Source: Gemmatimonadota bacterium
GTDB lineage: Bacteria; Gemmatimonadota; Gemmatimonadetes; Gemmatimonadales; Gemmatimonadaceae
Reading direction: 5' to 3'
Length of the DNA: 39,823 bases
Assembly (NCBI GenBank): GCA_947471365.1
Contig: CANIWQ010000012.1
Location: 1 to 39,823 of the forward strand
The translations under genes were made by a program, and so were the position numbers. This document shows positions 25,043-27,904 of the stretch, in pieces. The notes beneath the pieces are model-generated. The model ran no database searches, was not told the origin of the DNA, and saw nothing but the letters and a program-made list of their open reading frames with translations. Positions within the stretch are counted from its first letter, which is position 1. Every line of letters begins with the position of its first letter.

Positions 25043-25816
25043 ATGGCGGGGCGCATTCTTCAGCTCGTGTTGCACTACGACGGACATGACTTCGCCGGTT
25101 GGCAGGTCCAACCGGCGCAGCGTACGGTGCAAGGTGAACTCGAATCGGTGCTCTCCCGCCTGTGCGACAAACCGGTGCGCGTGGCAGGCGCTGGTCGGAC
25201 AGATGCCGGAGTTCATGCGCGCGGTCAGGTCGCGAGTGTGGAGATCCCGGAACATTGGACGGACGACCGGCTGCGCAAAGCCATGAACAGCATGCTGCCG
25301 CACGATCTCTGGGTGGCTCGGGTGTGCGGCATGGCACCTGGCTTTCACGCTCGGTATAGCGCGACTGGCCGGCGCTACAGCTACACGGTGGGGCTCGACG
25401 AGGGGTCCCGCTCGCCCTTTCGGCGACGCTGGGAATACACCTTTTCCCGGGCCCTCGACCGCGACACGCTGCACTGGTGTGCGGAGCAGGTCGTAGGGTT
25501 GCATTGTTTCTACGGATTCGCCGTGCGAGGGACCGCACCGGCGACCGATGGGCATCAAAGCGATGTGCGGATCTGCCGGTGGCGTGACACCGCAACAGGC
25601 ATCGTGCTCGACATCGAAGCGAACCGGTTCTTGCATCACATGGTTCGGTTTCTCGTGGGCACCATGCTCGACGTGGCAAGCGGCAAGCGGCAGCGCGGGG
25701 AGCTCACGTCGCTTCTCGTGGCAACGGACAACGACGAGGTGTCGCCCCCTGCGCCGAGTGAAGGGTTGTGCCTGGAGCACGTTACGTATCCCGATGCCCT
25801 CTACCTTTCCGCCTGA
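25043..25816 (+). CDS. truA: tRNA pseudouridine synthase A (positions 38-40)
   Basis: TruA makes pseudouridine at positions 38-40 of the tRNA anticodon arm. The 257-residue protein has the catalytic Asp54 in AGRTDAGVHARGQV, an early YDGHDFAGWQ block and the C-terminal FLHHMVRFLVGTML. Start ATG 25043 is correct because the conserved region begins within ten residues. It is the first gene of a twelve-gene plus-strand run that ends with purF. The gap to the next gene is 7 bases. Expected to be active. Confidence 0.96.
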   Translation: MAGRILQLVLHYDGHDFAGWQVQPAQRTVQGELESVLSRLCDKPVRVAGAGRTDAGVHARGQVASVEIPEHWTDDRLRKAMNSMLPHDLWVARVCGMAPGFHARYSATGRRYSYTVGLDEGSRSPFRRRWEYTFSRALDRDTLHWCAEQVVGLHCFYGFAVRGTAPATDGHQSDVRICRWRDTATGIVLDIEANRFLHHMVRFLVGTMLDVASGKRQRGELTSLLVATDNDEVSPPAPSEGLCLEHVTYPDALYLSA

Positions 25817-25823
25817 GTCATCG

Positions 25824-26486
25824 ATGCGCCTCTTTCTTGCAACTGCGTCGCTCGACGAAATCCGCTGGGCTACTGAGGCCGGCCTCATTGACGGTGTCGT
25901 GGCGACACCGACCGTGGTCACCTCGGAATTGCCCGGCGCTGACGTGCGCGAGGTGATTACCGAAATCGCCCGTGCCACGCGCCTGCCTCTCTGCGCGAGT
26001 GTGCCGGCCATCGGCGCGGCCGACATCATTAAGGGCGCGCGCGACCTCGCCAAGCTCAGCGATCATGTGATCATCGCGATCCCATTTATCGAAGACTCGG
26101 TGCCCGCCATCAACAAGCTGTCGGCCGACGGCGTGCGCGTGGCGGCCACCCTCGTCTATTCGGCCGCGCAGGGGATACTCGCGGCCAAGGCGGGGGCGAC
26201 GATGGTCACGATCGCGATCGACGCGCTGGACGCCGTCGGGCAGGACGGCGTCGCGGTGATACGGGAACTGCGTGCGGCGTTTGGCCACCACACCGAATGC
26301 GACATCGCCGCGGCGGGGCCGTCGAGCGCAGCCACGTTCGCGGCCTGCGCCGCCGCCGGCGCCGACGTCACCATTGTCACGCCGGGCGCGTTGCACGCCT
26401 TCCTGCAACATCCGTTGACCGACCGCGGACTCGACCGCTTCCTCGGCGCCATCGCGCGCCGTCCGAAGCCACGGCGGGCGCGTTGA
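25824..26486 (+). CDS. Transaldolase/fructose-6-phosphate aldolase-fold protein lacking catalytic residues
   Basis: A 220-residue protein, the same length as E. coli fructose-6-phosphate aldolase (FSA), with clear transaldolase-family sequence: VRVAATLVYSAAQGILAAKAGATMV. Gap-free alignment to FSA numbering (from memory) shows that the Schiff-base Lys85 is Ala85 (codon GCG at 26076-26078, in VIIAIPF). Asp6 is Ala6, Thr26 is Val26, Asn28 is Thr28, Gln59 is Ser59 and Tyr131 is Ala131; only Thr109 remains. The reading frame is intact and sits 7 bases after truA and 2 bases before htrA. A classical aldolase is therefore unlikely. It could be a pseudoenzyme, a binding protein, or an enzyme with other chemistry. 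Confidence 0.88.
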   Translation: MRLFLATASLDEIRWATEAGLIDGVVATPTVVTSELPGADVREVITEIARATRLPLCASVPAIGAADIIKGARDLAKLSDHVIIAIPFIEDSVPAINKLSADGVRVAATLVYSAAQGILAAKAGATMVTIAIDALDAVGQDGVAVIRELRAAFGHHTECDIAAAGPSSAATFAACAAAGADVTIVTPGALHAFLQHPLTDRGLDRFLGAIARRPKPRRAR

Positions 26487-26488
26487 CC

Positions 26489-27904
26489 ATGCGGTCGGTC
26501 CTCCCGATCAGCGCGATCATCGCGATTGCCTGCGGCGGGGCGGCACCGTCGCCGTCTATCGCGCAGAACACGCGACTGCCGGAGCCAGCGGCGAGCATCA
26601 ATAGCCAGCGCCGCACCGCCATCACCGAGGCCGTCGCCAAAGTGGCTCCAGCGGTCGTCACCGTGCAAACGGAAGCGGTGCAACGCACGCAGGTCTCACC
26701 GTTCGACGCATTCTTTGGGCGACAGCCGGAACAACAGATACAGTCGGGTATCGGTTCCGGTTTCATCATTCGCGACGACGGCATCATCATCACCAACGCG
26801 CACGTGGTGAATGGGGCGAGTAAAATCAGCGTGGCGCTGCGCGACGGCACCACCTACCCCGCGACGCTCAAGGGCATCGACGAGCTCAACGATCTCGCCG
26901 TCCTCAAGATCGACGCGAAGAAGTTACCCGTCGCCACCCTTGGCACCTCGCGCGGCTTGCTCATTGGCGAATGGGCGATCGCTATTGGGAATCCCTACGG
27001 CTTCATCCTCGGCAACACCGAGCCGAGCGTGACCGCCGGAGTGATCAGCGCCACCGGACGTAACCTGACGGCGCGCGCCGAGGGCAACGGCCTGTACGTG
27101 GACATGATTCAAACCGATGCGTCGATCAATCCGGGCAACTCGGGCGGACCGCTCGTGGACGCGGTGGGTGAAGTCATCGGCGTGAACAGTTCGATCTATT
27201 CACCGTCGGGCGGTTCGATCGGCTTGGGTTTTGCGATTCCCATCGATCGCGCACGTCGTGTGGCGGAAGATCTGCTCGCGCACGGCAAGGCGCGTCGCCC
27301 GTGGATTGGCGTGAAGATGGAAATGCCGACGGCAGCGGGCGCCTCCGCGCGTCAGCAGTTCGCGAGTGGCGCGACGGTCAAGAGCGTGGTCCCAGGCTCC
27401 CCCGCCGCCGCCGCCGGTTTGCAACCGGGTGACGTCCTCGTGCGATCACGGGAGCGCGCGTTGCGCAACGCGTATGATTGGGAAGCGGAGCTGCTTGAGC
27501 TCCGCGTGGGCGACAATGAGCCGCTCGTCGTCAAGCGCGGCGGCCGTGAGTTTCAGGCCACGGTGAAGATTGCCGATCTACCAGAAGTGAGCGCGGAGCG
27601 TGTGGCGGTGCTCAAGGATCTGGAACTCGTCACGCTCACGCCGGCGATCCGCGGCGAACGCAACGTGCGCACCACGCGCGGCGCGCTCATTACGAATATC
27701 GCGCAGAAGGTCGCCGACGACCTCGGGATTCAAGCGGGTGACGTGATCACCCGCATTGGCAACCCGACCATCGGCTACGTCGATCTCACGGACGCGCAGC
27801 AGGCCAAGACGGTCCTCGAGAGCCTCGCCGGGCGCGGCCAGATGCAAATGTTCTTTGAACGCAACGGCACCACCTACTATTCCGTCTTCCAGATTGGTCG
27901 ATGA
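26489..27904 (+). CDS. HtrA/DegP-family serine protease with two PDZ domains
   Basis: A 471-residue periplasmic trypsin-like protease/chaperone of the HtrA family. The catalytic triad is His105 (TNAHVV), Asp135 (NDLAVLK) and Ser218 (GNSGGPL). Two PDZ domains follow: about 285-375 (SVVPGSPAAAAGLQPGDVL) and about 385-470 (LGIQAGDVITRIGN). The N terminus has a signal sequence; a Cys at residue 15 (AIIAIAC) could be a weak lipobox, otherwise signal peptidase I would cut near SIAQ. ATG 26489 follows the previous stop by 2 bases, and its stop overlaps purB (ATGA). Coupling a protease to purine genes is unusual but may reflect read-through organisation only. Confidence 0.92.
   Translation: MRSVLPISAIIAIACGGAAPSPSIAQNTRLPEPAASINSQRRTAITEAVAKVAPAVVTVQTEAVQRTQVSPFDAFFGRQPEQQIQSGIGSGFIIRDDGIIITNAHVVNGASKISVALRDGTTYPATLKGIDELNDLAVLKIDAKKLPVATLGTSRGLLIGEWAIAIGNPYGFILGNTEPSVTAGVISATGRNLTARAEGNGLYVDMIQTDASINPGNSGGPLVDAVGEVIGVNSSIYSPSGGSIGLGFAIPIDRARRVAEDLLAHGKARRPWIGVKMEMPTAAGASARQQFASGATVKSVVPGSPAAAAGLQPGDVLVRSRERALRNAYDWEAELLELRVGDNEPLVVKRGGREFQATVKIADLPEVSAERVAVLKDLELVTLTPAIRGERNVRTTRGALITNIAQKVADDLGIQAGDVITRIGNPTIGYVDLTDAQQAKTVLESLAGRGQMQMFFERNGTTYYSVFQIGR

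Follow-up and report, generated by a model that had tools for sequence, protein, structure and literature searches.

Enzymes of the TalC/FSA family (TIGR00875; PDB entries 1vpx, 3s0c, and 1l6w) are the closest described relatives of the protein analyzed here, and they have in common with it the fold, the length, an alignment over the whole chain, and a C-terminal HPLTD arm. In class I aldolases, the catalytic lysine can sit on different strands. Pseudoenzymes in general are usually thought to arise from a duplicate copy. The gene of interest lies in a 39,823-nucleotide stretch of DNA from a Gemmatimonadota bacterium, the whole of which is called the window below, and encodes a protein of 220 residues (positions 25824–26486, forward strand). 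It belongs to the TalC/FSA-type transaldolase fold. Pfam profile PF00923 (TAL_FSA) matched it with 77.3 bits, above the gathering cut-off of 27 bits. However, the equivalog profile TIGR00875 (fsa_talC_mipB) gave 145.8 bits, which is far below its curated cut-off of 245.95 bits, and the protein is thus not assigned to this equivalog. The nearest solved structures are Thermotoga maritima TM0295 (1vpx, 1e-37) and Thermoplasma acidophilum transaldolase (3s0c, 7e-34); E. coli FSA (FsaA, 1l6w) is a further solved relative (4e-14). An AF2 model of the monomer, built from a two-row alignment of the window protein and its homolog L033, predicted a transaldolase-type (beta/alpha)8 barrel with a pLDDT of 84 and a pTM of 0.81. 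The predicted monomer superimposed on T. acidophilum transaldolase (4xz9) with a Z score of 28.9 and an rmsd of 1.7 over 200 residues.

Although the fold is retained, the active site is not. The Schiff-base lysine of strand 4 is missing, and its position is occupied by Ala85 (codon GCG, 26076–26078). The alignment gives the substitutions D6A, T26V, N28T, Q/E59S, K85A, L/N107A, Y/F131A, G/N133D, R134A, and S166G, of which four read Q59S, L107A, Y131A, and N133D against E. coli FSA specifically. The acid/base and sugar-contacting set Asp6, Thr26, Asn28, Glu/Gln59, and Phe/Tyr131 has therefore become Ala, Val, Thr, Ser, and Ala. The first three of these are encoded on the forward strand at 25839–25841 (Ala6), 25899–25901 (Val26), and 25905–25907 (Thr28), and Ser59 at 25998–26000. 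Thr109 is kept, and the segment 26142–26225 carries it together with Ala107, Ala131, the newly fixed Asp133, and Ala134, which replaces the phosphate-binding arginine. The other part of the phosphate site, formerly Ala165-Ser166, is Ala164-Gly165 (26313–26318) in the window protein. The original prediction, made from the sequence, had listed the replacements at positions 6, 26, 28, 59, 85, and 131 and the retention of Thr109, and the alignment bears out this list. The E. coli numbering was checked against 1l6w (100% identical). The observation that the catalytic site was erased is correct and, if anything, too modest; Arg134 and Ser166 of the phosphate site are lost as well. The alignment with FSA had been described as gapless over the comparable parts; this is nearly so, the comparison with E. 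coli having a two-residue gap just past position 50 and a single-residue one close to position 158. A correction is needed for the ancestor: the syntenic orthologs show that the ancestral site was of the transaldolase type (Glu59 and Phe131) and not of the FSA type (Gln59 and Tyr131).

The gene is tightly packed in an intact frame, as had been noted, with truA (tRNA pseudouridine synthase; 25043–25816, forward strand) ending 7 nt upstream and an htrA/degP-like protease gene (26489–27904, forward strand) beginning 2 nt downstream. We collected its homologs from the Gemmatimonadaceae (f1) and from further families within the same order and class (f2, f3, f4, f5, f9, and f10). Both neighbors, truA and either htrA or purB, were visible at 104 of the 108 Gemmatimonadaceae loci and at 39 of the 42 loci elsewhere, and the ancestral gene order is truA-fsa-htrA-purB. 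This order is older than the loss of the lysine; therefore, we dropped the idea of a functional tie to htrA or truA based on gene order. The TalC enzymes of the sister families are direct orthologs at the identical locus. They retain Lys85 at all 42 loci, and the site is intact in f2, f3, f4, f5, f9, and f10 (D6, T26, N28, E59, K85, N107, T109, F131, G133, R134, A165, and S166). By contrast, Lys85 is absent from all 108 Gemmatimonadaceae loci, which carry Gln (52), Ala (38), Glu (13), Arg (3), or Met (2) instead. A close homolog with Lys85, which might have made Ala85 a local mutation, was thus not found among them, and the concordance of 108 loci rules out a local mutation or an assembly error as the cause.

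In the tree of orthologs, all of the proteins without the lysine form a single clade (SH-aLRT 98) adjoining the f3 copy that has it, and the Ala85 copies form one clade within the same tree (SH-aLRT 97), indicating a single origin of Ala85. The tree is a quick one with several long branches, but the split between Lys85 and its replacements still needs just one change. This places a single loss of the lysine in the Gemmatimonadaceae ancestor. Synteny and tree position together identify the window gene as the original Gemmatimonadetes TalC at its ancestral locus. A genome-wide scan for relatives outside the phylum reached only one close relative, and the matches listed in a plasmid scan were all annotated as FSA or unannotated, at about 38% identity or less.

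The order in which the site was dismantled can be read from the lineages that branch early. In genera g34 (K85M) and g21 (K85E), nearly all of the remaining site residues are kept. In g32 (K85E), Thr26, Asn28, and Glu59 have changed too, and in the remaining lineages without the lysine most of the site is gone. Because the early-branching intermediates keep the rest of the site, the lysine was the first residue to be lost, and the other residues followed stepwise. Most of these lineages show a drifting pocket and repeated deletion of the gene. A homolog was not found in 36 of 148 Gemmatimonadaceae genomes. We read the locus in 11 such genomes; in 10 of them htrA comes immediately after truA, whereas the remaining one (L233, genus g3) still has a remnant of about 25 codons between the two genes (2259–2336). 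This remnant is the pseudo-transaldolase gene caught midway through deletion. Presence and absence have to switch at least 6 to 8 times on a tree of TruA and HtrA, and the gene has been deleted at least six times within the family.

The branch to which the window belongs, comprising genera g1, g13, and g23 (hereafter the A85 clade), behaves differently. The gene is retained in 38 of 38 genomes of this clade as against 74 of 110 in the rest of the family, counts in which the genus codes of some unlisted genomes were partly inferred. Ala85 is kept by 37 homologs in the clade. A codon model gave an omega of 0.030–0.031 in the A85 genera, which is similar to that of htrA (0.031–0.036) and purB (0.027), lower than that of truA (0.079–0.114), and higher than that of the live orthologs (0.012–0.021), although the absolute values are rough because synonymous sites are near saturation. 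The pairs L003/L004 and L025/L034 gave 0.038 and 0.050. The least diverged informative pairs of the clade gave NG86 values of 0.04–0.10; the NG86 medians over pairs are too high as a result of synonymous saturation. One A85-type gene in g23 (L100, G087:C12) is in two frames, split near residue 128, by either a frameshift or a sequencing error.

Selection in this clade extends to the former active site. Its twelve positions have a mean entropy of 0.24 compared with 0.82 at the other strand positions, and none of 20,000 random sets was as low. In the eroded Gln/Glu/Arg clade, the same positions are less conserved than the other strand positions (2.07 versus 1.26). Young age of the A85 clade does not account for this fixation, because two eroded Gln/Glu85 subclades of matching divergence (mean identity 0.59–0.65, against 0.62 for the A85 clade) show none, with pocket entropies of 0.88 and 1.13 versus averages of 0.77 and 0.97. 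Ala6, Val26, Thr28, Ser59, Ala85, and Asp133 are new and invariant in the clade, and Thr109 is kept; the mouth positions 131 and 134 vary.

These results bear on whether the gene is a decaying pseudogene whose frame has stayed open by chance. The deletions elsewhere in the family, the L233 remnant, and the split g23 copy would fit such decay. However, an omega of about 0.03, intact frames in nearly all homologs, an invariant new pocket, and complete retention in the clade speak against it, and we give this explanation next to no probability; for the A85 clade, omega and the fixation of the pocket rule it out. The earlier view that the protein is a pseudoenzyme selected rather than decaying is thus upheld by Ala85 in 37 homologs, by the low omega, and by retention in every sampled genome of three genera, and the suggested search for a low dN/dS clade sharing Ala85 found just this. 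The clade-wide loss of catalytic residues under purifying selection, by which a pseudoenzyme is recognized, is present here.

It is hardly conceivable, too, that the protein is still an aldolase or transaldolase using a lysine from another position. Such relocation has a precedent in the different strands that carry the lysine of class I aldolases, but no lysine of the A85 clade is conserved above 86%. The best conserved are at position 215 (86%, in the disordered tail), position 122 (84%, in helix 5 and also present in live enzymes), and position 70 (62%). None of them is suitable, which makes a relocated lysine very unlikely, and a pocket lysine supplied by another strand, which had been named as a possible objection, was not found in the clade.

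How the family could dispense with this enzyme is suggested by a second transaldolase. We surveyed PF00923 proteins in 56 genomes, 36 of them from the Gemmatimonadaceae, and a second transaldolase of about 345 residues was present in all 36. The long protein was found in none of the sampled f2, f4, and f5 genomes; a second copy carried by the f5 genome G338 is a different, small one. In f3, and in two of the three sampled f9 genomes, the long protein occurs alongside an intact small enzyme. A lysine in a KVP/KIP motif was present in all 30 long transaldolases that were read. The closest outside relative, an f3 genome (G174, loci L145 and L201), has both an intact syntenic small transaldolase and a long one. 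This pair is the state expected prior to the loss of the lysine.

In the simplest history, the long transaldolase would have arrived in the lineage and coexisted with the small syntenic enzyme, as in present-day f3, and Lys85 would then have been lost in the Gemmatimonadaceae ancestor, the old enzyme having been freed by the long one. Because the long protein is present in 36 of 36 Gemmatimonadaceae genomes and missing from most of the sampled families with Lys85, replacement by it probably freed the old enzyme. We infer this from the order of events; it is a historical argument and not a test of correlation, because replacement and loss are each essentially one event. In one genome with the K85E copy at the syntenic locus, an additional small transaldolase is encoded on a different replicon or contig (L108, G016:C4:131955-132566); its Lys85 site is intact, and the gene may have been re-acquired. 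A comparable non-syntenic copy with Lys85 lies inside a longer open frame (L109, G020:C27).

Two features at the C-terminus may indicate what the converted protein does. The C-terminal arm (HPLTDRGLDRFLG, 26409–26447, forward strand) is a probable subunit contact, and its consensus, HPLTDRGxDxFL, belongs to the stretches that live enzymes and pseudoenzymes share most closely. In the TalC/FSA family, the arm touches the neighboring subunit; therefore, the window protein has probably kept its oligomeric state. The arm is followed by a conserved polybasic tail (ARRPKPRRAR; 26448–26483, forward strand), which is new in the A85 clade and has the consensus (S/A)RRx(K/R)x(R/K)Rx(R/K) there. Its net charge is +5.2 in the A85 clade compared with +0.35 in live enzymes, and its entropy is 0.79 compared with 2.00. 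The ribosome binding site of htrA is ruled out as the sole cause of this conservation, because the basic residues stay constant while their codons vary, and because the tail is also kept at L011 and L020, two loci at which no neighboring htrA was found. Cys159 (26298–26300) is common to 97% of the Gemmatimonadaceae proteins and is Thr in the live orthologs. It lies where strand 7 begins, probably on the barrel face opposite the active site, and may form a new contact.

On balance, we favor reading the window protein as an oligomeric pseudoenzyme that no longer acts as an aldolase and has taken on a putative new role in binding. Aldol chemistry would be absent and the oligomeric barrel retained; the shaved pocket may accept a ligand without phosphate recognition; and a ring of polybasic tails could bind a polyanion such as RNA, DNA, polyphosphate, or acidic lipid, the tail being the basis for this last step. 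A more specific proposal is tentative and somewhat doubtful as a whole: the A85-clade protein would represent a new functional class within the FSA fold, a ring (probably a decamer) that has a re-purposed pocket free of phosphate and bears ten polybasic tails, and it would serve either as a ligand-controlled binder of a polyanion (RNA, DNA, or polyphosphate) or as an enzyme that works without a Schiff base.

A new enzyme of this kind, in which Thr28, Ser59, Thr109, and Asp133 form a new catalytic site with room made by Ala6 and Ala85, is unlikely as a reading of its own. The former site is constrained at nearly the level of live enzymes and far above the matched controls, Asp133 and Thr28 are derived and invariant, and the four re-fixed residues, being polar, might lend themselves to a new chemistry. 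However, none of the twelve former site positions has gained a fixed His, Cys, Glu, or Lys. Ala, Val, Gly, and Ser account for most of the changes, and the mouth positions are variable. A purely structural role, as a scaffold or oligomer partner with an irrelevant pocket, is less probable still. Conservation of the C-terminal arm and helix 5 agrees with such a scaffold, as does the pocket of the Gln/Glu85 lineages, which is less conserved than their other strand positions. Nevertheless, the pocket of the A85 clade is among its most conserved parts, unlike what a pure scaffold predicts. A scaffold is thus a better description of the other (Gln/Glu) lineages than of the window protein, for which it is weak. 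The original prediction had also suggested a regulator with a sugar phosphate as its ligand. This is unlikely for the window protein, because Arg134, Ser166, and the sugar-contacting residues are gone; the K85E and K85M intermediates, whose sites are otherwise kept, would fit that idea better.

Any annotation of these Gemmatimonadaceae genes as transaldolase or fructose-6-phosphate aldolase would mislead. A longer, distantly related isoenzyme apparently displaced the original enzyme of a core pentose phosphate step, and the lysine of the old enzyme was then lost in place throughout the family. The stages that survive are the enzyme with its replacement, the site intact except for the lysine, the drifting site, the deleted gene, and the re-fixed site, and they make the order of conversion from enzyme to pseudoenzyme directly testable.

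In the open-access literature, we found no description of a transaldolase/FSA pseudoenzyme or of this gene. Compared with the TalC/FSA enzymes, the window protein lacks the Schiff-base lysine, the residues Asp6, Asn28, Glu59, and Phe131, and the phosphate-site residues Arg134 and Ser166, and it has a conserved polybasic tail. Some of its changes have counterparts in engineered proteins. The K86A mutant of T. acidophilum transaldolase (PDB 3s1w) has the same replacement of Lys by Ala at the equivalent position of the same fold, but it is a laboratory mutant with an otherwise intact site, whereas nearly the whole site is replaced in the natural window protein. The E. coli FSA variants R134V/S166G and L107C/A129G/R134V/L163C/S166G (PDB 7qxf and 8s7i) likewise have a small residue in place of Arg134 and Gly in place of Ser166; however, according to the PDB titles, Lys85 is untouched in those mutants. 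With pseudoenzymes in general, the A85-clade protein shares the clade-wide loss of catalytic residues, purifying selection, and the retained fold. It differs from them in that the original copy was converted at its ancestral locus.
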